From the NCBI GenBank assembly GCA_017991915.1, contig JAGOPQ010000006.1, forward strand, positions 1 through 32,348: a DNA stretch of 32,348 nucleotides, given 5' to 3'. Origin of the DNA: Minisyncoccota bacterium. GTDB lineage: Bacteria > Patescibacteriota > Minisyncoccia > Phycocordibacterales > UBA9973. The position numbers were made by a program, and so were the translations under genes. Below, piece after piece: positions 5,017 to 32,348 of the stretch. Within the stretch, counting starts at the first letter, position 1, and each line of letters begins with the position of its first letter. Below the pieces are notes generated by a model. That model had not been told where the DNA came from. It saw only the letters and a program-made list of their open reading frames with translations, and made no database searches.

Positions 5017-5736
5017 TTACTTTTTAATACCCTTCTTATCTTCATACATTTTGTTATCTGCTTCTTCGATAATTCTAGCAACAGCTTCTTCATCACCTTC
5101 TTCTATTAAACGGTGCCCCATAGAAATATTAATAGGGACTCTTTTCCCACGCGCCTCAACTGAAAGACTTTTATTTATTTCTGTTTGAACTCTTGCAAAA
5201 CTAGCCTCAGCATCTTTTTTGTGAGCAACTGGCATCACCACCATAAATTCATCGCCACTAATTCTAAACAATGAATCAGATGGACGTGTCACTTCTCTTA
5301 ATCTCTGAGCCACAGCAATCAATGCTCTATCTCCAACTGGATGACCATAATTGTCGTTGATAGATTTAAAAGCATTTACATCTAAGAATATAACCATAAC
5401 ACCCTCAATACTATCTTCTCGAGATTCCCCCTCTCTATGCACAGAAAGTTGCTTGAGATAACTTTTTAAAATAGATTTTAAAAATACCCTATTAAGAAGT
5501 TGGGTCAAATCATCGAGGGCCAACTGTCCTTGAAGTTCTATCACCTGCTGATCAAGTATCTCAGCTAATTCAAAAGCTAATGCATTTCTTTCATCCAAAG
5601 GAATGGCGGTGTTTGCTCTAAGTTCTTTATATCCGGCCTTACCCTCAGTAATTAATTTTCTCATCGTCGAATAGTCTACCAGCTTGGTATCTATAGCTTG
5701 AGGTGCAAGACGTCTTTCTGGTCCTTTAAATTCCAT
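5017..5736 (-). CDS. diguanylate cyclase, soluble GGDEF protein
   Basis: A 239-residue cytoplasmic protein that should make cyclic di-GMP from two GTP. Residues 1-75 form a helical N-terminal region without a recognisable sensor domain; the GGDEF domain spans about 72-235. It opens with DDLTQLLNR, has the metal-binding aspartate in FLDVNAFKSIND (D118/D119), and has the active-site motif SGDEF at 160-164; serine in the first position is found in active enzymes. The inhibitory I-site RxxD is present as RPSD (151-154), exactly five residues upstream. The C-terminal EADNKMYEDKK is typical. An extended -10 box lies 6 bases before the ATG. No EAL, HD-GYP or PilZ protein is visible nearby. Confidence 0.92.
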   Translation of the reverse strand: MEFKGPERRLAPQAIDTKLVDYSTMRKLITEGKAGYKELRANTAIPLDERNALAFELAEILDQQVIELQGQLALDDLTQLLNRVFLKSILKSYLKQLSVHREGESREDSIEGVMVIFLDVNAFKSINDNYGHPVGDRALIAVAQRLREVTRPSDSLFRISGDEFMVVMPVAHKKDAEASFARVQTEINKSLSVEARGKRVPINISMGHRLIEEGDEEAVARIIEEADNKMYEDKKGIKK

Positions 5737-21151: not shown

Positions 21152-22231
21152 TTATTCTCCTAGGGTTTTTAATTTTTCTTTTAATTTTTCTTCTTCCAGC
21201 TTTACCTGCTCCAATTCTCTGGTTAACTCTTGACTCTCTCCTTCTAATTCTGTAAATTCTTCCTTTAAGTCTTTTACGTTGTGTACCTTTTCAAAATACC
21301 TGTCGCGGTGAGATTTCTTGGTTAGCAATAATACTATTATCGTCAATATTCCTACACCAAACAATCCATATATAGTCACCGTACCTAAATTATTCTTTAA
21401 TATAGACCATATTGAGGAATCCTGAGATTGCACTTCTCCAGGTAAAGCAATCCACTTATCTACCAATATTCCCCTATCGTTTACACCTATTTGAGACAAT
21501 CCTTTTTCCAATATAGATTGCAGAATGGCTTTATTCTTAGTTAAAGCAAAAGATGGTTTGTAGTCCAACCCAGTATTTCCGACAATTTTTACACTACTTA
21601 GTACTTGCTTGGATAAATAATATGACAGGGAGGCCACGTCCATAATCGCAGCATCCACTTCACCGAGGACTACTTGCTGTAGTCCCACTTCATCATCCGT
21701 AACGCCATCTCGCACTACGCGAGGATAATTTTTACTCACATACTTCTCAACAGCAGAACCATCAACCATTGCCACTCGCTTACCATTAAAATCATTCAGG
21801 GTGAGTCCATTTCTTTTATCTGCGTCTTTACGCACCACGATGACCACAGGCACTGTGGCGTAGGATTCAGTGAAAATCAAATTGTCTTCAGTGGTGACAT
21901 CTGGAGTAAAGAAAGCCACATCACCCTTACCACTTTGGATTTCAGTACTTATTTGAGCGCGAGATCTTGGAGTTAAATATTGAATCTTTGCTCCAATCTT
22001 CTCCGCAACCAATTCAATATAATCTATGGAAAGGCCCTGAATATTCCCTGAAGGATTTTGATATGAATATGGTGGATTGTTTTGCTCAGGATAAACTACG
22101 ATTGTGTTGTTTCTTTCTTTCAGCCACAAAGTTTCCTCTGGAGTCAGCAGGTCTCTAGTCTGCGCAAAAACATGCAAAGAAGCCAGCATGGAAAGTGAGA
22201 ATAATAATGTTGCTAGGGTTATTTTTTTCAT
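21152..22231 (-). CDS. membrane-tethered solute-binding (Venus-flytrap) receptor-like protein
   Basis: A 359-residue protein with a signal peptide (1-23), an SBP_bac_3 type domain (about 42-262), one membrane helix (284-304) and a cytoplasmic coiled coil (315-358) rich in E, K and L. The binding domain shows NNPPYSYQNPSGNIQGLSIDYIELVAEKIG, the DVAFFTPDVTTEDNLIF stretch and a C-terminal ILVDKWIA, all typical of amino-acid-binding proteins and of the periplasmic domains of BvgS-type sensors. No kinase, cyclase or chemotaxis domain follows, and no ABC importer genes are nearby. It overlaps the upstream cohesin gene by ATGA. It may be a receptor that signals through its coiled coil, or a subunit of a multi-protein sensor. 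Confidence 0.85.
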   Translation of the reverse strand: MKKITLATLLFSLSMLASLHVFAQTRDLLTPEETLWLKERNNTIVVYPEQNNPPYSYQNPSGNIQGLSIDYIELVAEKIGAKIQYLTPRSRAQISTEIQSGKGDVAFFTPDVTTEDNLIFTESYATVPVVIVVRKDADKRNGLTLNDFNGKRVAMVDGSAVEKYVSKNYPRVVRDGVTDDEVGLQQVVLGEVDAAIMDVASLSYYLSKQVLSSVKIVGNTGLDYKPSFALTKNKAILQSILEKGLSQIGVNDRGILVDKWIALPGEVQSQDSSIWSILKNNLGTVTIYGLFGVGILTIIVLLLTKKSHRDRYFEKVHNVKDLKEEFTELEGESQELTRELEQVKLEEEKLKEKLKTLGE

Positions 22232-23352
22232 TGCGGTTTATCTGGAGTTACTATGTTATCAATAGTTTTATCCATCATTTTATCTTGACGTTCCAGCTGA
22301 TGACCAGACAACTCAATTTGTTCTTCTTCCAATCCAAGCTTTTTCTTCAACACCCGCATTCTCTTCCATGAATACCAAGGGATAAAATATATTATAACAC
22401 CGAGTCCAACCACAGGAATCAATAGCCCCAATACGTTTATTATGACCACTAGGGCCTTCACTATCTTACTATCACTCACCAACAATTGGACACCTAGTCC
22501 TGGCTTCTCTACATTAGCATCTGGGTCCACCAAAAATGGAGTAGCATTATAAACTCCAGCCACTAGGTTGGTAGCACTGGTGTATTGGAATCCACCTTCA
22601 GCATCATTTTTTACCAGAACTTCATCTAGCCTTTTCTTTTTAGATTGGAGTATTTCCAAGAATTTTTCACCCACGGATTTAAAGGATACGTCTTTAAAAA
22701 CAATTTTTGTTAGAGCATTTGGTTCTCCTTTTCCTTTTAGGTAGGCATTACTTTTCGGATCCACTGCTGGTGAATATTCGGTGATGACGGGCAATGCTGC
22801 CAATTTACTACCAGGCAAGGCAGCTATAGTTTGATATTGAGAAAATGATTGCCCTGGAATTATACTTAGTTTGGCAGAGCCAAGTGTAGCTAAAATATTT
22901 GTACCCCGTCCATCGTTAGCCAATATTGCCCCTTCACTAAAGTTCAGTATCGCATTACCGGTGTTCTGTGCTTCAAAAGTAACCCGAAACACCAAACCAT
23001 TGTCTCCCTGAAACCCTGGATTCAATATAATACCCTCGAAGTTAATTTTATTTCTGCCTATCTTGGGATCTTGTGTCCATAAATTGATGATACTTCGTTC
23101 TTTGGATATAGAAACAACTTTAATCAGATTTTCTGGAAATGATAGTACACCCGAGATGGCATTAATAGATTGCAGGTTCGACTGAGTTTTTACATCTAAG
23201 ACAAAACGCTCACCCACTTCTACTCTTGAAGGTGGCGTGCTGAGATATATATTTTGATTAGCACCACCAGAAAACTGTGCACCCACTTGGTGCACACCGA
23301 GAAAAACTACAAACATTAGACAAAAAATCTGAAGATATCGGGAAAATCTCAT
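22228..23352 (-). CDS. membrane-anchored cohesin-domain protein 1
   Basis: A 374-residue protein with a signal peptide (1-25), a cohesin-like beta-sandwich (about 33-165), a second extracytoplasmic domain (about 190-290), a membrane helix (299-325) and a basic then acidic cytoplasmic tail. The cohesin call rests on the pattern YLSTPPSRVEVGERFVLDV, then SGVLSFPENLIKVV, the INFEGIIL strand and the closing GTNILATLGSAKLSI. Cohesins bind dockerins, and a dockerin protein is encoded two genes upstream. It overlaps both neighbours by four bases (ATGA), which couples translation of the pair of cohesins and the receptor-like protein. Cohesin domains also occur in proteins that bind other partners. 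Confidence 0.83.
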   Translation of the reverse strand: MRFSRYLQIFCLMFVVFLGVHQVGAQFSGGANQNIYLSTPPSRVEVGERFVLDVKTQSNLQSINAISGVLSFPENLIKVVSISKERSIINLWTQDPKIGRNKINFEGIILNPGFQGDNGLVFRVTFEAQNTGNAILNFSEGAILANDGRGTNILATLGSAKLSIIPGQSFSQYQTIAALPGSKLAALPVITEYSPAVDPKSNAYLKGKGEPNALTKIVFKDVSFKSVGEKFLEILQSKKKRLDEVLVKNDAEGGFQYTSATNLVAGVYNATPFLVDPDANVEKPGLGVQLLVSDSKIVKALVVIINVLGLLIPVVGLGVIIYFIPWYSWKRMRVLKKKLGLEEEQIELSGHQLERQDKMMDKTIDNIVTPDKPQ

Positions 23353-24251
23353 ATTTTATATTTTAACAATTTAAAGCCCAAAATACCAGACAGGGCCAAG
23401 AGGACAAGCATTAGAACCAAAAGCTTTGACGGCAAAATTCCCGGAATCACGGTATTGGCGTCTTGGAAGTTGCCGTAGAAATCAAAAGCTCGCACGATGA
23501 CACTTCTAGAGAAAATACTCTTGGCTATAGGTTGTGGACTGTTTGAATCCTGCCACTCACCCACTCCTATCTTGATTTGATATTTCTTGATACCAGAATC
23601 CGCATCCTCGGCTTTAAATACTATCATGTCTGGAGTTTCTGAAAATACTGAGGACGATATGACTGATAAATCAAAAATGTTCGGCGGAGTTACATCTACC
23701 GCGCCATTGGTGGTGGTCGGCGATATAATATTTTTGACCGCCACTATGATATTTTTCTTCTCGTGTTCTAGGGCAGTTCCCTTACCATCATGTTTTAAAA
23801 TCGTTGTGTTTAAAAAAGAAAAATCTGCATCACCTGCTCCCTTGGCCACAAATAGGAGCCGAGCTATTGGCGTTGGGCTGATGCCTTTCTTTTGTGGATC
23901 ATATAAGCCAGAAACTCCGCCGGGTATGATTCCACTCATGCTGATAGTACCAGCATCATCATGTGGGGAATCAATCCAAATTCTTACCACTGTATTTTCA
24001 TCCTTGTATCCGGCAAAAGATAATAGATTTTCATCATAATTTATAGATACATTTATCGAGTTGATGAGGTTGCCTAGAGTATCCGCATTCACCGCCACCT
24101 CAAAAGTCTCACCTATGCTCACGCTACTCGGAGCCTTGAAGTAAATGCTGGCTTTGGACTCTACTGCACTTGCTTGATTCACAGCCACAAAAAACCCAAT
24201 GAAAAGTATGGTTAGTGGAAGAATAAATTTTAATCGTTTTATTTTTTTCAT
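23349..24251 (-). CDS. membrane-anchored cohesin-domain protein 2
   Basis: A 300-residue protein. The signal peptide ends at about residue 29 (ASA), followed by a cohesin-like domain (33-172), an Ig-like domain (188-268) that includes PPNIFDLSVISS and RAFDFYGN, and a C-terminal membrane helix (274-294) with a short basic end. The cohesin pattern is ASIYFKAPSSVSIGETFEVAV, SINYDENLLSF, the GTISMSGIIPGG strand, ARLLFVAKGAGDADFSF, and a closing KKNIIVAV. The domain order differs from protein 1, so they are not simple duplicates. It lies 10 bases after the dockerin gene and overlaps protein 1 by ATGA. The likely function is holding dockerin-bearing proteins at the cell surface. Confidence 0.85.
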   Translation of the reverse strand: MKKIKRLKFILPLTILFIGFFVAVNQASAVESKASIYFKAPSSVSIGETFEVAVNADTLGNLINSINVSINYDENLLSFAGYKDENTVVRIWIDSPHDDAGTISMSGIIPGGVSGLYDPQKKGISPTPIARLLFVAKGAGDADFSFLNTTILKHDGKGTALEHEKKNIIVAVKNIISPTTTNGAVDVTPPNIFDLSVISSSVFSETPDMIVFKAEDADSGIKKYQIKIGVGEWQDSNSPQPIAKSIFSRSVIVRAFDFYGNFQDANTVIPGILPSKLLVLMLVLLALSGILGFKLLKYKI

Positions 24252-24261
24252 ATTTATGTGA

Positions 24262-25155
24262 TTAACCAGTCCACCAGAAAGCCAAGATAGAAAAGTCTAC
24301 AAGGTCAATCTTGTTATCTCTGTTTGTATCTACGCATTTAGGCGGATTGGGTTTATTGTACCAAAAAGCCAACACAGAGAAATCTACTAAATTTATAATC
24401 CCATCATAATTGCAATCTCCTGGAATATTTTCCACGATGTCGGTGTTGGGTATATTCAGCTCGCCAATGATAAATTTCACGAGCTTGGTGATTCTTGTGT
24501 CGTTCAAATATCTAGCGTAAACCACATAATCTCCCTTCGGTAAATTCTGCATAGGAAGTATTATTTTATAAGTTCCATTTTTATTAGAAGTGAGTGTAAA
24601 ACTCTTTTTTTCCTTACCCTCGATAAAAACTTCCATATCCGCATTTGGCAAACTGTGTCCATAAACTGTCAGGTAGTCTCCAAAACGAACCTCAGCTTTG
24701 TCGGTGACTATGGTTGGGGCAAACTTTATTCCGCTCAAATGGGTGACATAGCCCGTATAGACAACTATGGGGTAATTGATAAGCAGTGATTTATTTCCTG
24801 ACACATCCATGGCATATAGAGTATAGATAGTGGTGGTGTCATATTTTTCTTCCAATGTCGCACTAAAATATCCAGAGGTGTCGGCTAAAACAGATATGGC
24901 CTTCGTGCCTTCTTTAAGTATTGTCACGATAGCTTTAGGATAAGCGTATCCAGAAAAGCTCACCGCAGTACGAGGTAATCCAAAACCACCAGTCGTTGGG
25001 GTGACAGTAACAGTACCTACTTGTGCCGTTACGGTTACTTCTTCCGTTTCGGTTAATGTCAAAGCCTCTGCTACATGAGCAGACATGTTGCAGACAAAAA
25101 AGAGTAGAAGGAATCCACTTATGAAAGTTGAAGTTTTTTTAGAGAGAAGAATCAT
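24262..25155 (-). CDS. exported dockerin-containing protein with Ig-like domains
   Basis: Read from the ATG at 25155 this is 297 residues; an alternative ATG at 25176 adds seven. Both overlap the upstream gene, and I prefer 25155 because it gives a normal signal peptide (LLFFVCNMSAHVAEA). Two Ig-like beta domains follow. The C-terminus is a dockerin: on the longer numbering, D254-D265 (DCNYDGIINLVD) and D283-D294 (DTNRDNKIDLVD) are two EF-hand-type calcium loops with D/N at positions 1, 3, 5, 9 and 12, each followed by FS(V/I)LAFW. One cysteine lies in each half. The two halves are nearly symmetrical, as in type I dockerins that can bind in two orientations. Two anchored cohesin proteins are encoded just downstream. 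Confidence 0.9.
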   Translation of the reverse strand: MILLSKKTSTFISGFLLLFFVCNMSAHVAEALTLTETEEVTVTAQVGTVTVTPTTGGFGLPRTAVSFSGYAYPKAIVTILKEGTKAISVLADTSGYFSATLEEKYDTTTIYTLYAMDVSGNKSLLINYPIVVYTGYVTHLSGIKFAPTIVTDKAEVRFGDYLTVYGHSLPNADMEVFIEGKEKKSFTLTSNKNGTYKIILPMQNLPKGDYVVYARYLNDTRITKLVKFIIGELNIPNTDIVENIPGDCNYDGIINLVDFSVLAFWYNKPNPPKCVDTNRDNKIDLVDFSILAFWWTG

Positions 25156-26176
25156 GAGAAGGCATAGATGGAGCATGTGTATTCATGCCAACTTTCGCTT
25201 TCTCAATAATGAATCTGTTGTAGCGCTTGATAAGTTTTTTACCACCCCAAAATACAATAATAAAGAGAAGTATCATTACCAACACGAGTTGCCAAGGAAA
25301 TACAAAGAACCAAGCAGTCTTTTTGACTTGCAGGGCTTGGGTTCCATAAGTTAGGTTTAAGTGTGCAGAATAAAGTCCAACCGCGAAATTTTTCCACTGA
25401 TAAGAAACGTCACTCCAAAACTTTTTAGCAAAGTTGGTGGGTGCTACATAATCCATAGGACGTTCGTATTCTACCCAATCCACGTTATACTTTCTGGTAC
25501 TTAGGGGTAAAACATTTCCTTCAGATGGATTGGCATTTATTTTATCGCTTGGCAAAAACAAAGTATCTAATATTGAAATTTTACCTTGTGGCTTAATTCT
25601 GTCTCCTCCATCATTCTTGAATCTATATTCAAATGAGACTGGAAGCGTGTTGTAGAAAAATTTATTATCTTTGGTGTTGAAATTGAGTAAACCTCCAGCT
25701 TCTTTCACATCACCATTTACTGACAGCAGGACAAGTATTCCTGTCTTTGCACCGATAGACACTCCTTGTCCAGCAGGAGAAGTACCCCAGAAAAGAACAG
25801 CAAAGTGTCCTCCGGGTTCGGCATTTGTAGGGATAGTTATTTTAAATGGAATAATTTTTTGCTGACCAGGAGAAAGTGTGGCTGATTCATCTGTCTTCAT
25901 CCATGTTCCTAGTCCTTCCTTTGGATCTACGAAGGCTGGACTACCTGACTCTCCTTGAGCTTCAAAGTTAGAAAATGAAGAATAATATGTCTCGATATTA
26001 TTAGTCTCATTTATAAGAATAATTTCTTCGCTTACTACGTCTCCGGGATTACCTTTTACCTCGAAACGTGTCGGTGAAATAGTCAGAGCGTCTGCAGTGG
26101 TCGGCAAACTAAGCCAAGACAACATTGCTATCGCAAAAATTGCCAGTGAAGTTCTGTAATTCGGGTATTTCTTCAT
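25139..26176 (-). CDS. DUF916-like (WxL-interacting-protein type) membrane-anchored protein
   Basis: A 345-residue protein with a signal peptide (1-30, ending ADA), two extracytoplasmic beta domains (about 31-155 and 160-285), a membrane helix (288-311) and a basic cytoplasmic tail. The start LTISPTRFEVKGNPGDVVSEEIILINET resembles the first strand pair of DUF916/WxL-interacting proteins, which share this signal-peptide/beta/beta/helix order and which, in Firmicutes, hold WxL surface proteins and bind peptidoglycan. The call is by pattern and topology, so the family assignment is moderate. Two candidate WxL-like secreted proteins lie immediately upstream. A TATAAT sequence sits between it and the 385-residue gene, but no clear -35. 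Confidence 0.7.
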   Translation of the reverse strand: MKKYPNYRTSLAIFAIAMLSWLSLPTTADALTISPTRFEVKGNPGDVVSEEIILINETNNIETYYSSFSNFEAQGESGSPAFVDPKEGLGTWMKTDESATLSPGQQKIIPFKITIPTNAEPGGHFAVLFWGTSPAGQGVSIGAKTGILVLLSVNGDVKEAGGLLNFNTKDNKFFYNTLPVSFEYRFKNDGGDRIKPQGKISILDTLFLPSDKINANPSEGNVLPLSTRKYNVDWVEYERPMDYVAPTNFAKKFWSDVSYQWKNFAVGLYSAHLNLTYGTQALQVKKTAWFFVFPWQLVLVMILLFIIVFWGGKKLIKRYNRFIIEKAKVGMNTHAPSMPSHDSSL

Positions 26177-26200: not shown

Positions 26201-27358
26201 TTAAAAGGTCGCTGTTCCTATGAAGGTAAGCGTGTCTGCGTAGTCTGCATGAGCAGGTACTGATCCACTGATAGCAGCGTTTACTACCACTTCAGCATGG
26301 CCAGAAGCCAAGACAGAAGAAGAAGTAACTATATTTGCAGGAGTAGTGGTAAGTCCACGAATAGGGTTAGTTGCAGATGCGAGAGCACAAGCAGCTGCAT
26401 CGTATGTACCCGCGGCACGAATGAACCCAGTCAATCCAGCTGTCGCCACACACAATCCATAGTTAGAGGTTCCAGCAGCCATTGTACCAGTGGAGCTGGC
26501 AATAGTATCAGCTGGTGTAGAAGTAGATACTAGTCCACTTGCACCGTTAGCATTTTGCACAGTAACATTCAAACCACCTGATGCGTTTGTTGCGGCCTCG
26601 AGAACAATCATTTTAACTGATGAAGAATCAGAGTGAGTCACTGATCCTGTAGAAAGTGTCCCGAGTTCCACAGTATATGGAGCAGATGATTCATCAGAAC
26701 CAAAGTCAGCCTCAGCATCTATATCAAAAGTAAGAGTCTGGTTTACAGAAGCAGAAATTGTAACTTGGTCGTCATCAATAATATCTACAGTGATAGTTCC
26801 AGAATCTCCGAATGCTCCACCTATAACTATAGTATCGTCATCATCCACGTTAGTAGCATTTACGATTGTGGACGCAGATCCCGTACCACCAGTTGTAGCA
26901 GCAGTACCCCAGACTAGACGCATACAGAATCCAGCAGTGAGGGCTTGGTCTGTTTCAGGATCAATTGTAATTACATTTCCAGTTACGTCCACATTCCAGT
27001 CGGTAGCTGTTGCACCAGTGGTAGCAACTACTTCATCTGTATATGTAGCAGTAGAACATGTTCCACTGTCTCCGAGCTCTATGTCGTAGTTGGTAGCAGA
27101 CTCGGCAGCAAGCACGAATTCACTACTAAAAGTGAAGGAGATTGTATCAGCAGTACCAGCTTGTATTCCAGTTGGAGTAGCAAATTGTATGGTACCTGAT
27201 TCACTGTTTGCACTTACTTTTAGTCTTCCAAAAGTAGCTTTTGCAGTAGTGATACTAGCAGCTTGAGCTGGCATCGGTGCAATAATAGATAAGAGTGCGA
27301 CCATTACCACAGAACCCAAGAAACGTGAAAATGCGGACTGTCTAAAAAATTTAATCAT
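26201..27358 (-). CDS. secreted beta-rich surface protein A, WxL-like or spore-coat-U-like
   Basis: A 385-residue protein with a signal peptide (cleaved after about residue 33, AQA), an N-terminal beta domain (about 35-200) and a C-terminal domain (208-385) that is a paralogue of the same region in the 274-residue protein upstream. The C-terminal domain ends DTLTFIGTATF, which resembles the terminal strand of WxL domains (YxATLTWTL) and also that of spore coat protein U/CsuA domains (YxDTVTVTF). It has no membrane anchor, so it should be secreted and held by another protein. Cysteines come in pairs in both domains. Composition is rich in A, S, T and G. It is expressed from an extended -10 about 66 bases upstream. 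Confidence 0.72.
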   Translation of the reverse strand: MIKFFRQSAFSRFLGSVVMVALLSIIAPMPAQAASITTAKATFGRLKVSANSESGTIQFATPTGIQAGTADTISFTFSSEFVLAAESATNYDIELGDSGTCSTATYTDEVVATTGATATDWNVDVTGNVITIDPETDQALTAGFCMRLVWGTAATTGGTGSASTIVNATNVDDDDTIVIGGAFGDSGTITVDIIDDDQVTISASVNQTLTFDIDAEADFGSDESSAPYTVELGTLSTGSVTHSDSSSVKMIVLEAATNASGGLNVTVQNANGASGLVSTSTPADTIASSTGTMAAGTSNYGLCVATAGLTGFIRAAGTYDAAACALASATNPIRGLTTTPANIVTSSSVLASGHAEVVVNAAISGSVPAHADYADTLTFIGTATF

Positions 27359-27492: not shown

Positions 27493-28317
27493 TTAGAAAG
27501 TTCCAGTCATTATGAATGTTAGCGTGTCAGTATAGTCCGTGTGCGCTGGAGAAGTAGTGCTAATCGTTGCATTTACCACCACTTCTGCGTGCCCATTGGT
27601 TAGCGCTCCAGAAGAGTTCACTATGCTTATGGGTGTGGTGGACAATGCCCTTATACCATTGGTTCCAGAGCTAAGCGCGCATGTATCTGACACATAGCCA
27701 GTAGAGCGTGAGAATCCAGTCAAGCCCGAAGTAGCTACGCACAATCCGTAGTTCGCCGTGCCGGCAGACATAGTGCCTGTAGAGCTAGGTATAGAATCTG
27801 CTGGTACAGTGGCAGAAGTGAGTCCACTGGCACCACCGGCGCTTTTAACCGTAACCACCACTCCACCTGCTGCGTTTGAATCTCCTTCTAGAACTATCAT
27901 TTTAATAGTAGAAGTATCGGAAACTTTTACTGACGCAGTAGATAGAGTTCCAAGCGGAACTGAGTAAGGTGCTGAAGATTCACCATTAGAAAAATCTCCC
28001 GCTGTGTCAATATCAAAAGTTATGGTTTGCGCTACGTCTTGATAATACAAAAATCCATAATTTGCTTTAAAGGAAGCTGAGGATGCTCCACCCATGGACC
28101 CTAGAATATTTCCAGATCCTACGGCTTGAAAATTTGTGGAAGTTCCAAAGCCTCCACCAGTTCCGACTATCGGATCATGAATAATAAAATTTGTACTAGT
28201 CAGGTCAGAAGCGTACACAGACACACCCAAAGACGCAACCAAAAAACACAAAAATAATTTAAGTGCAGATGAGGTGGAAAAATTTATTTTATTTTTATAC
28301 TTTTTTTGTAAAAGCAT
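27493..28317 (-). CDS. secreted beta-rich surface protein B, paralogue of protein A
   Basis: A 274-residue exported protein with a signal peptide (ending YAS, about residue 37). The region 41-90 contains the STNFIIHDP and TSTNFQAVGSG repeats seen, from memory, in many CPR surface proteins. The domain 99-274 matches residues 208-385 of protein A (more than half identical by eye, including SSTGTMSAGTANYGLCVATSGLTGF). It ends DTLTFIMTGTF. Two cysteines in this domain (NYGLC and DTCAL) fit a disulfide. There is no membrane helix. It follows the 148-residue gene with a slight overlap of start and stop regions. It could be a minor subunit of the same surface structure as protein A. Confidence 0.72.
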   Translation of the reverse strand: MLLQKKYKNKINFSTSSALKLFLCFLVASLGVSVYASDLTSTNFIIHDPIVGTGGGFGTSTNFQAVGSGNILGSMGGASSASFKANYGFLYYQDVAQTITFDIDTAGDFSNGESSAPYSVPLGTLSTASVKVSDTSTIKMIVLEGDSNAAGGVVVTVKSAGGASGLTSATVPADSIPSSTGTMSAGTANYGLCVATSGLTGFSRSTGYVSDTCALSSGTNGIRALSTTPISIVNSSGALTNGHAEVVVNATISTTSPAHTDYTDTLTFIMTGTF

Positions 28318-28322
28318 AATAA

Positions 28323-28769
28323 TTAAAATTCATTTTTATTTGAACCTGAAGTTGTAGAATTTATCTTGGTATTAGAAAGTTCTTCGGGTTTGTTTGGAAA
28401 ATCACCGGTATTGACTGGCGCCATGTTTACAATTTTTTTAATTATCGGATCATAGAGAATAGCCTTCTTGGCATTTGTATATATCAAAACTTTATCTCCC
28501 TTTTTTGCATCTGCAAAGAAAGCTTGGTTTTTGAGTGCACTAGGATCAGACACTGTGGCAATGGTTGGTGTTTCATTTGTAGGCAACACTATCAACTGAC
28601 CTACCTCTTCGGTCAGCATTTGTATTTCTGTACGATTTACAGCTTCGGGGTTGTTGTAGGAAATATTATTTTTGTAAAAATATCCACCGATAACTACTAC
28701 AGTCACTAATAGAAAGACTGCAACAAATGGTAAATGTCTTCCAATGAATTTGCCCATATGTTTTATCAT
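28323..28769 (-). CDS. small single-pass extracytoplasmic protein, CPR-type, function unknown
   Basis: A 148-residue protein with a basic N-terminus, a membrane helix (about 12-34) and an extracytoplasmic domain (50-120) with the pattern FFADAKKGDKVLIYTNAKKAILYDP. I associate this pattern with small CPR membrane proteins, but no function is known to me. The C-terminal 30 residues are disordered (N, S, T-rich). The start at 28769 is supported by AGAGG 6 bases upstream, one of the few well-placed ribosome sites here; it sits just after the giant gene's stop, so the two are coupled. A second ATG four codons later is possible. Confidence 0.72.
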   Translation of the reverse strand: MIKHMGKFIGRHLPFVAVFLLVTVVVIGGYFYKNNISYNNPEAVNRTEIQMLTEEVGQLIVLPTNETPTIATVSDPSALKNQAFFADAKKGDKVLIYTNAKKAILYDPIIKKIVNMAPVNTGDFPNKPEELSNTKINSTTSGSNKNEF

Positions 28770-28779
28770 ATCACACCTC

Positions 28780-31700
28780 TTACCACCACAAAAGAAAACT
28801 GACTAGATATTGAAGTGGATTAACGATAGGAAAACCAGACTGGTAAACGGAAGCCAGATTGCTTTTACCGTCCAAGAAGCCACTGTCTCCCCCTCCGCCA
28901 CCGGCACCACCACCACAACTACCGTTAAATACAATTGTAGGGGGTGTAGAGTAGTTACTACCACCAGAAGTTATGTTTACGTTTGTCACAGCGCCACTAG
29001 ATACTACTGCGGTTCCAGCTGCACCAGAACCCCCACCTCCACAGAAAGATACTGATGGAGGTGTAGCATAGTTTGTACCGCCGGAAGTTATGCTTACACT
29101 TTCTACTAAACCATTGGACAATACTACGGTACCACCAGCACCACTAGGCACGCCACCATCACCACCGCCTCCACCGCCAACTCCGCCTCCGCCAACTTGA
29201 CCATCGGGGTTAGCTGATGCTTCCACACCACCTCCACCACCGCCCTTAGATATAAATTTCCAACAAGAACCGTTGTTACCAAGGTCTATGATGGTTGCAC
29301 TTGGGGAAATATTGTTACCACCAGCACACGCAGAATCTTTCAACCTAACGTAGGCAACGTTTGCAGTAGAATTAAATGTTGCAGTCCATGAACTACCAGA
29401 AGTAGTTGAGCTCAACTCAAGGAAGCTACCAGTTTGACCCGCCACACTAAATGTTCCATTGAAAGTATAACTATTACCATTCTTAAATTTCAAAAACTTT
29501 GATCCACCATTTGAAGGAGTAACTGTAAAGTCATGGAAGGCGATATTACTTGCACCACCGATGATTGTAGTAGAACCATTTACTGACTCACTGCCAACTG
29601 CATAAAATGTAGAAGGTGAATTTTGATTGTTATATTCGGTGGTAATCCAACCAGCACTGCGAATTACATTTGAATAACGAACTTCGTCAAATTGCTCATT
29701 GGCATCAATACCACCGGTTTGGTTTTCTCCAAACTTAAAATCATTTGGGCTGTCACTTTGGACCGTTCCCAATGTCGGTTGTGGGGCAGTGAGTGATTCC
29801 GCTACTCCATCCAAATAGATAGTTGGAGCGTTTCCAGCGGTTGAATTGTTCATTGTCACCACAATATAGTACCAAGGTGTAGTACTGTTTAGTTTTGTAG
29901 TACCATAATAAATTGCTTGACCAAATGTTGAAGCTGTCCAATTTTCATCATAAAATATTTTATGACCATTTGTGGCATCACTTCCTCTACGTAAACGTAG
30001 CGCCCAACCTGCAGTATTTAGACCCTTGGTGAGAAGCGCATAATCAGTACTGGAGCCAGGAACAGAATTTCTCTTGAGCCAGAATGAAATAGTCTTTGTG
30101 GTGAATCCATCAATTGAGGCATTGGATCCATAGTTAACGTTTTGGTCTGTTCCATTGGTTGAAGAAGCACCACCAATTTTTCCAGTTACAGCAGTAGTGC
30201 CTGTGATAGTTCCATTATTTCCAAAATAAGTTGAATCAACAGCTGAAAGAGTAGAGCCGTTTGGTAAGTGACTTACCAATTTGTATCCAGGATCCCAAGT
30301 AGCTGGTGCGTTGGATTGATCGCTAGAAATATTACTATTTCCGTAACACATATAGAATACTGTGTCGGTGCTACTAGATAAAACAGGAACTCTAACCCAA
30401 TAATTTACTAATCCAGATGATGCAGTATATGTTTCTGTTTCCCACGGCATCTTTCCAGAAGAACAGTTGCTGTTCGTGTAGAAGCCAACATCATACCCTG
30501 ATGCATTCAGGACCTTACCTCCATTTTGAGTTGTTGCCAAGTAAGAGTAAGTACCAGAAACAAGGACTGGGAAATTTACCTGGTTGGATGCAGACACTTT
30601 TGTATGATCTACGGTGATAGCTCTATAATATTGGAATTCAGAAACTCCCGGGTTGATGGTCACGGTGCGAGATCCGCTAGTGAAAGTACCATCATTAATC
30701 AAGTTTCCACTGAGTGCCAAGTTGGTAGGTGCAGTAAATGTTGCCCCAGAATCAATTTTCAATCCATTGCCGAGAGTAGTAGTCTCACCACTACCACCTG
30801 TATAAGTTCCCTTTACGTGTATATTGTCTACAGACACATCTCCACCCGGAGCAAATGTCTTACTATCATCCACGTGAATTTCCACGCCAGAATCACCAAC
30901 TAGATTTGAACCAGTGACATTGACTGGTATATCAGAATCGTTAGTTTTATCATAGGTTGAAATATTTGCATTAGTTATTGAGGAACCAGTTTCATAACGC
31001 AACCATGCAGTATTTTTTACCAAAGAAAGTCCTGTAATATTTGTAGCGCTATCCACCGCTCTAGTGTAGGTAACACCCTTGTCCGCCCCAGCAGTGTCCA
31101 TAAATATAGTAACAATATTATTAGAAGATACAGTTTTATTTACAGTAAACACTCCTGTAGCTGTATTACATACGACATTTGTTTTAGTTCCACCATTTAC
31201 TGAGATAGCAATGTTGGTATTCGCTCCACATCCAGGCCAAGGAGAATTTCCGGATTCATCATCATATACAGTACCAGATATAGTAACTGTAACTGCTGGA
31301 GTCACTGGACTACCAGTAGGCACAGTTCCTGCATCATAGTTGCCTCTTGAATCTTTCGTAAATATTTTGTAGTAGTAGGGAGTACCATTTGAAAGTGAAG
31401 TATCTTGGCAAGTTACTGCTGGTGGAGAGCCGGCCAGTACACAAGCTACTGTAGAGCTACCGATGGTATTGCCCACTGAATATGTGGTTCCCTCTACTGG
31501 TACATCCGTCACTACTGATGTAGTTCGTCGCAAGACCACCACTGTTCCAGAAGTAGTGAAGTCACTATCAGCTGGGTTGGTCCAAGCCAGGTCAACCACA
31601 GTACTACCACTTGATGCAGTAGATGAAGTTACCCCTGCTGGTGAAGCATTGTCTACAGTAATAGTTGCAGAGTCTGTGTCTGTGCCAGTGGTAGCGTTTG

Positions 31701-32348
31701 TAGCAGTGATACTAGTCACAGTAGCGGTAGTTGCATAGCTTGCTCCTGGTACTGCTGGCATAACTGCATGAGATTTGGGAGTTATTATAATTGCGTAATC
31801 TGTGGGCGTAGTTGTGACACCAATAGCACAGGAAGTAAGGAGTACAGTGTTGGATGATGGAGTGGCAGAACATTTAGAAACTCCACCACCGGTTTGAATA
31901 TCAACAGTGGCAATGTTGTTAAAAGCTCCAGTTGGACCTAGAGTTACTGTTAGTCCAGTGACGGTGTCTGTACCTGAAGAAGTTGAAAGAGAGAAGCGAT
32001 CAATTTCAGTAGCAGCTGCTCCAGGGCCTATGGTGCTGTTTCCCCCATCGGTACCGTCGCCGATAACTGTAGAAGACGGCACGATGTACGCCACTATTAT
32101 TCCAGCTTCGTTCAAAGTGGTCGTATGTGGCGTAGTGGTATATTCAGCATCTATACCAATGTCAGTATTTCCTGGTGGGTAAGTTGTAGAATGAGCAAAT
32201 TGTGTATATACAGCGTTAGACGTAGTCAGTACCTTGGGTGTAGCTGTTCCATTTAAAATAATATTGTGTACTGGACTATTAGAAGTAGAGTCTACTTTTG
32301 CAGAAATCCAACCCATATAATCTACAATATTGGCTGATGAAATATTCG
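28780..32348 (-). CDS. giant surface protein with FN3, DUF2341 and LamG-like domains (5' end outside the window)
   Basis: At least 1178 residues, counted from an ATG at 32316; the frame stays open to the window edge, with codons that read like protein, so the true N-terminus is probably outside. Domains on this numbering: beta-rich repeats (1-220), a fibronectin type III domain (about 224-343, ending TPYYYKIFTKDSRGNYDAG), another beta domain with pectate-lyase-like IHVDDS and GNLINDGTF strands (450-560), DUF2341 (about 562-665), a LamG/concanavalin-type domain (about 690-905), then a Gly-rich tail. The tail has two SGGxNYxxPP repeats. It ends PLQYLVSFLLWW, a hydrophobic terminus with no charged end. 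A ligand-binding surface protein or adhesin is the most likely role. Confidence 0.85.
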   Translation of the reverse strand, partial: NISSANIVDYMGWISAKVDSTSNSPVHNIILNGTATPKVLTTSNAVYTQFAHSTTYPPGNTDIGIDAEYTTTPHTTTLNEAGIIVAYIVPSSTVIGDGTDGGNSTIGPGAAATEIDRFSLSTSSGTDTVTGLTVTLGPTGAFNNIATVDIQTGGGVSKCSATPSSNTVLLTSCAIGVTTTPTDYAIIITPKSHAVMPAVPGASYATTATVTSITATNATTGTDTDSATITVDNASPAGVTSSTASSGSTVVDLAWTNPADSDFTTSGTVVVLRRTTSVVTDVPVEGTTYSVGNTIGSSTVACVLAGSPPAVTCQDTSLSNGTPYYYKIFTKDSRGNYDAGTVPTGSPVTPAVTVTISGTVYDDESGNSPWPGCGANTNIAISVNGGTKTNVVCNTATGVFTVNKTVSSNNIVTIFMDTAGADKGVTYTRAVDSATNITGLSLVKNTAWLRYETGSSITNANISTYDKTNDSDIPVNVTGSNLVGDSGVEIHVDDSKTFAPGGDVSVDNIHVKGTYTGGSGETTTLGNGLKIDSGATFTAPTNLALSGNLINDGTFTSGSRTVTINPGVSEFQYYRAITVDHTKVSASNQVNFPVLVSGTYSYLATTQNGGKVLNASGYDVGFYTNSNCSSGKMPWETETYTASSGLVNYWVRVPVLSSSTDTVFYMCYGNSNISSDQSNAPATWDPGYKLVSHLPNGSTLSAVDSTYFGNNGTITGTTAVTGKIGGASSTNGTDQNVNYGSNASIDGFTTKTISFWLKRNSVPGSSTDYALLTKGLNTAGWALRLRRGSDATNGHKIFYDENWTASTFGQAIYYGTTKLNSTTPWYYIVVTMNNSTAGNAPTIYLDGVAESLTAPQPTLGTVQSDSPNDFKFGENQTGGIDANEQFDEVRYSNVIRSAGWITTEYNNQNSPSTFYAVGSESVNGSTTIIGGASNIAFHDFTVTPSNGGSKFLKFKNGNSYTFNGTFSVAGQTGSFLELSSTTSGSSWTATFNSTANVAYVRLKDSACAGGNNISPSATIIDLGNNGSCWKFISKGGGGGGVEASANPDGQVGGGGVGGGGGGDGGVPSGAGGTVVLSNGLVESVSITSGGTNYATPPSVSFCGGGGSGAAGTAVVSSGAVTNVNITSGGSNYSTPPTIVFNGSCGGGAGGGGGDSGFLDGKSNLASVYQSGFPIVNPLQYLVSFLLWW
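28915..29136 (-). repeat. two diverged repeats encoding SGGxNYxxPPxVxF units
   Basis: Residues 1061-1097 and 1101-1134 of the giant protein align: VESVSITSGGTNYATPPSVSF and VTNVNITSGGSNYSTPPTIVF share spacing and most residues, and each is followed by a C-containing glycine run. Such glycine-rich repeats occur in many surface proteins. Confidence 0.75.

Follow-up and report, generated by a model that had tools for sequence, protein, structure and literature searches.

A conserved operon that couples one dockerin gene to membrane cohesins in Parcubacteria, probably as a non-cellulosomal surface anchor

The window, a stretch of 32,348 nucleotides from a Minisyncoccota bacterium, holds an operon in which the gene for one exported dockerin protein is followed directly by the genes for two membrane-anchored cohesins. 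We consider it probable that this operon is a dedicated, non-cellulosomal device, which fixes a stalk-like surface protein to the membrane without a covalent bond. Non-cellulosomal cohesin-dockerin pairs are a known kind of system; what is new here is the coupling of a single dockerin gene to two membrane cohesins. How proteins are attached to the surface of CPR bacteria, and how these bacteria are attached to their hosts, is largely an open question, and a compact plug and socket that is conserved across many Parcubacteria provides a defined domain pair for in vitro tests.

The genes of the run all lie on the minus strand. The dockerin gene (24262-25176, 304 aa) encodes an exported protein with a Big_6 Ig domain and a C-terminal two-loop dockerin (domain proper, 24265-24426). 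Cohesin 1 (23349-24251, 300 aa) comprises a predicted signal peptide, the cohesin (23730-24158), an OmpL47/Ig-like domain and a C-terminal TM helix with almost no cytoplasmic tail, and cohesin 2 (22228-23352, 374 aa) comprises a signal peptide, the cohesin (22855-23259), a second domain, a TM helix and a helical cytoplasmic tail. The overlapping run ends with a 359-aa protein (21152-22231) that carries an SBP_bac_3 ligand-binding domain (Pfam, E 6e-16), a TM helix and a coiled coil. Spacing among these four genes is +10, -4 and -4 bp, with the overlap ATGA occurring at the junction of the two cohesin genes and again at the junction of cohesin 2 with the 359-aa gene. A preliminary description of this DNA, made from the sequence, had the gene geometry right, as the ORF coordinates place the dockerin stop 10 bp ahead of cohesin 1 and join the cohesins by ATGA. 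The interval that it gave, 21152-25155, does contain the trio, and also the SBP_bac_3 gene, which it left undescribed; its start for the dockerin gene was an inner ATG at 25155, from which the signal peptide is kept too. An SBP_bac_3 gene stands at the equivalent place in two loci of the same genus (L068 and L179), and at L084 one follows a cohesin-2 fragment at a contig edge. The SBP_bac_3 protein, with its TM helix and cytoplasmic coiled coil, shows a partial likeness to the sensor part of EvgS (NCBIfam).

The dockerin protein scores 23.9 bits against Pfam Dockerin_1, over the cut-off of 22.9, and its best sequence match in the PDB is itself a dockerin (2y3n_B, E 5e-5); the Big_6 match (Pfam, E 3e-7) lies N-terminal to the dockerin domain. 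Both calcium loops, DCNYDGIINLVD and DTNRDNKIDLVD, are intact, and the protein terminates in ..FWWTG. Among 69 relatives, residues D1 and D12 of the first repeat and D12 of the second never vary, and the calcium-loop residues in general are invariant or nearly so. The domain forms the extreme C-terminus of the protein in nearly all relatives. With two calcium-binding F-hand repeats and recognition positions that are two-fold symmetric, it has the sequence features of a type I dockerin (PF00404).

For the cohesins, Pfam gave a weak match below the cut-off in cohesin 1 (E 2e-4, 21.8 bits against 24.1) and no cohesin match in cohesin 2, and membership of the cohesin family (PF00963) therefore rests on the family profile and the fold. 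By profile and alignment, the two proteins are homologous to one another and to cohesins from other members of the phylum, and the profile of this family (A3) matches cellulosomal cohesins in the PDB, with a best E of 5e-4. The preliminary description had proposed structure prediction as a check, and a cohesin fold is predicted for both proteins. In the AF2 models, residues 93-239 of the model for cohesin 1 match 2jh2_A with a Z of 16.4, and residues 31-170 of cohesin 2, modelled with a pLDDT of about 90 or more, match 2vo8 with a Z of 16.5. For each of the two, 49 of the 50 best fold matches are cohesins or cohesin-containing entries. As modelled, then, the window cohesins have the beta-sandwich fold of cohesins. 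The OmpL47-type domain of cohesin 1 was found by NCBIfam below its cut-off. Each cohesin protein has a hydrophobic helix at its N- and C-terminus; signal peptides and TM helices were called from hydropathy alone. The anatomy first proposed, of signal peptide, cohesin-like domain and C-terminal helix, is thus borne out by hydropathy, family profile and predicted fold. The model used for cohesin 1, in which dockerin and cohesin were linked by reading through the window DNA (TAAT counted as a single residue; in relatives, TAA translated as glycine), reached a pTM of 0.69 and informs on the fold, not on the interface. The readthrough residues served purely as a linker in this model, and we claim no recoding.

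The trio of genes recurs widely. A cohesin-2 profile made from six close sequences was used to scan one genome per species (84,980 species) and returned 266 relatives, of which the loci of the best 80, picked without regard to dockerins, were analysed; as the profile came from six close sequences, these 80 loci are biased toward close cohesin relatives. At the 72 testable loci, nearly all from Parcubacteria, which were found by the cohesin alone and have enough flanking sequence, a dockerin stop lies at most 100 bp upstream of the cohesins in 55 and at most 2.5 kb upstream in 63, and over 73 pairs the median gap is 3 bp. The remaining nine have no separate dockerin gene inside 2.5 kb, and in one of them, L143, cohesin and dockerin are fused. 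The order of the genes is conserved across loci beyond chance, and the module first seen in this one contig is therefore real. Throughout the group, each dockerin gene is coupled with between one and three cohesin genes of its own, in a ratio of about 1:2; in one such locus (L069:6308-7629), the third cohesin is spread over two frames, probably by a frameshift. Where the best 80 records carry specific titles, these are Parcubacteria or other Patescibacteria in all cases save two, and several records are titled merely 'bacterium'. One exception, titled Methylomirabilis (L137), has a typical Parcubacteria module, and its contig is probably misbinned; the other is titled Elulimicrobium, a placement taken from the title. 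In an even sample of the phylum (287 genomes), 93 had a cohesin match and 79 a dockerin match. Exact synteny is found in another species of the window's genus (L179). Within this genus, cohesin-protein matches occur in 8 of 25 genomes, the window's own counted, and this patchiness indicates that part of the lineage can do without the device.

In cellulosomal dockerins, positions 10, 11, 17, 18 and 22 recognise the cohesin. Two main types of dockerin are present at the loci, one with L at position 10 (and commonly A at 17) and the other with S and L at these two positions; the window dockerin is L-type, with L at 10 and A at 17 in both repeats. Among 74 dockerins, position 10 is identical between the two repeats in 68 and position 17 in 59, where shuffling would give 30 in each case. 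Position 11 shows no excess of between-repeat identity in the same test, which argues against a simple homogenisation of the repeats. On a tree of cohesin 2, built from a short domain, position 10 changed 8 and 7 times in the two repeats, with 6 changes on shared branches (p 4e-8), and 3 of 3 first-repeat changes at position 17 likewise share branches. In these sequences, positions 10 and 17 appear to change in step, as expected if both faces of the dockerin bind cohesin. Taken with the conserved pairing in Parcubacteria, this concerted change makes it very likely that dockerin and cohesin interact. Mirror-tree correlations were also computed (r 0.55 and 0.47) and set aside as evidence of interaction, since linkage alone predicts such values.

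From the computed folds, domain order, operon, conservation and concerted change of the faces, we infer how the device could work in a bacterium that is very small and probably symbiotic. The dockerin protein would be exported and, having no C-terminal membrane helix, would be held through its C-terminal dockerin by the two neighbouring cohesins, presumably in a calcium-dependent manner. The cohesins in turn would be fixed in the cytoplasmic membrane through their C-terminal helices, leaving the N-terminal part of the dockerin protein exposed as the presented payload, of Ig type here and in the form of long fn3/MG2 stalks in relatives. Pfam finds Dockerin_1 in 65 of 69 dockerin proteins, Big_6 in 34, MG2 in 13 and fn3 in 8, and the dockerin protein of one relative has 24 fn3 stretches; these N-terminal Ig/fn3-type domains look like stalks. 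A search of the window's genome (94% complete) gave no match to sortase (PF04203) at E 0.01, so exported proteins need another anchor, which is an argument for the device rather than a proof of it. The anatomy of the module thus fits the role in surface anchoring that had been suggested for it. That the device makes contact with a host cell is speculative.

The two faces of the dockerin are near-identical, so either could take a cohesin, or both could do so together. Two kinds of natural fusion protein occur among the loci. At two loci, both cohesins are found in a single chain, in the order cohesin 1, TM, cohesin 2, TM (L097, 6790-9387, 865 aa; L117, 1085-3541, 818 aa). Five others encode a small exported protein of 247-284 aa that combines a cohesin with a C-terminal dockerin (L143:7734-8588, L144:10372-11118, L146:6388-7131, L161:10376-11122 and L162:10364-11107); two of the last four are titled Kaiserbacteria. 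These fusions link the cohesin and dockerin parts whether or not binding is assumed, and the cohesin-dockerin proteins could chain together. A bolder version of the model, which we put forward tentatively and think rather unlikely as a whole, is that a symmetric dockerin is held on both faces at once, with one membrane cohesin on each, as a 1:2 non-covalent substitute for sortase in many Parcubacteria, and that the cohesin-dockerin fusions could chain into a fibre.

The cohesins might instead be receptors for other dockerin proteins, whether encoded at a second locus of the same genome or made by neighbouring cells, with the adjacent dockerin just one client among several. A search of the genome found three dockerin places in the bin: the window, C31 and C13. 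On C31, a longer dockerin protein is accompanied by two cohesins, so a second source of dockerins does exist; its dockerin, however, differs from that of the window at positions 10 and 17. The third place (C13 of G000, locus L008) has a dockerin with three cohesins, and after these come the genes that also stand downstream in the window, which from their sequences we take to be YchF, a methyltransferase, a TM protein and LeuRS. YchF would thus occur twice in the bin, and C13 therefore probably belongs to a co-binned relative. Elsewhere in the phylum, L175 and L176 have four to six dockerin-ended proteins in tandem with few cohesins near, as might be expected of clients for a receptor, yet the ratio at the operons, of about one dockerin to two cohesins, is the reverse of a scaffold that gathers many clients, and we judge the receptor explanation unlikely. 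The tandem dockerins of L176 adjoin a cohesin-dockerin protein and a PilN-like gene. At L169 and L171, a dockerin is followed by a cohesin, and membrane-anchored cohesins are found within PilN/PilO-like gene runs at L167, L168 and L172, the last two of which also show a weak dockerin match. This variety suggests that the pair has several uses in CPR.

It is also conceivable, though distinctly improbable, that the domains with a cohesin fold serve simply as adhesin modules, with the dockerin as a calcium-stabilised cap, the genes being adjacent as surface genes and not through binding of their products. A fibrillar-adhesin domain, CLIPPER (9ifr), is indeed among the fold matches of the cohesins. 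However, adjacency of this kind would leave unexplained why the order and spacing of the genes are near-fixed, why the recognition positions change together in both repeats while position 11 shows no excess, and why fusions unite two cohesins, or a cohesin with a dockerin.

A dedicated membrane anchor, as we prefer to read the operon, would resemble the cell-surface anchoring scaffoldins of cellulosomes, in which surface cohesins likewise hold dockerin proteins; it differs from them in having one cohesin per protein, a TM helix as anchor and no catalytic clients. Proteins with two cohesins are confined, among the loci, to L097 and L117. No recognised glycoside hydrolase is present among the 25 most frequent of the 35 Pfam families in the 69 dockerin proteins, the remaining 10 families matching one dockerin protein each; one of the 69 has a domain that is GH-associated but non-catalytic, and one carries a BNR repeat. 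Neither a glycoside hydrolase nor a cellulose-binding module was found by Pfam in nine window proteins. Dockerin-bearing glycoside hydrolases, the mark of a cellulosome, are thus absent from the families and proteins examined, and with a single cohesin per protein this supports the initial view that the module is not a cellulosome. A small cellulosome-like enzyme complex, as proposed in a report on a Shapirobacterales organism that expresses the same pair of domains (PMC9123182), is on these grounds highly improbable here.

The closest solved folds, at Z about 16, are the secreted cohesin-like (X82) modules of C. perfringens (2jh2, 2vo8 and 2w1n), which are non-cellulosomal too; those are modules of glycoside hydrolases, whereas the window cohesins are membrane-anchored, lack enzyme domains and share an operon with one dockerin. 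From a different lineage, the archaeon Archaeoglobus fulgidus, comes another non-cellulosomal cohesin (2xdh), which matches the window cohesins with Z 15.5 and 14.9. Within CPR, a dockerin protein of Southlakia epibionticum, a species with genetic tools, is essential and thought to target host glycans (PMC10633639). The novelty claimed at first holds in part: dockerins and cohesins of CPR are already in print (PMC9123182, PMC10633639), from the same domain families and the same radiation, but the portions of these two reports that we consulted do not describe the pairing in an operon or an anchoring role, and our literature search found no description of a conserved CPR cohesin-dockerin operon and no tested pair. 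The operon points to another way of interpreting the cohesins and dockerins of CPR than as a cellulosome, and it suggests a setting in which the essential dockerin protein of a cultured member of CPR may belong.

Upstream of the dockerin gene, the run continues on the same strand with genes that recall the WxL/WxLIP clusters of Firmicutes. The immediate neighbour (25139-26176, minus strand, 345 aa, C-terminal TM) overlaps the start of the dockerin gene and encodes a WxLIP(DUF916)-like protein of family A8, which is the immediate upstream neighbour of the dockerin in many L-type loci, always on the same strand. The A8 profile matches EfmWxLIP1 (9i25_C) over its first part, with E 2.6e-4, and PF06030 is found by Pfam in 5 of 21 members, the window protein not among them; DUF3324 was not seen. 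Sequence comparison thus supports a probable relation of A8 to WxLIP. Farther upstream lie two secreted proteins of family A9 (26201-27358, with C-terminal ..DYADTLTFIGTATF, and 27493-28317, both minus strand), which are 54% identical in alignment; such genes recur farther upstream of the dockerin in many L-type loci, in a neighbourhood that is nearly all on one strand. Pfam and PDB searches with A9 gave no match, and we call its members WxL-like by their C-terminal pattern. In Firmicutes, the clusters most often contain one WxLIP, of 337-365 aa, and two WxL proteins (PMC10599100). The window likewise has one WxLIP-like and two WxL-like genes in one run, but here the dockerin and cohesins come after them. 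Beyond these genes, still on the minus strand, are a 148-aa protein (28323-28769) and a large protein matching DUF2341 (28780-32316), whose frame is still open where the contig ends. Elsewhere in the window, the product of 5017-5736 resembles, by eye, a GGDEF domain with the motif SGDEF, which is unusual in so small a genome.
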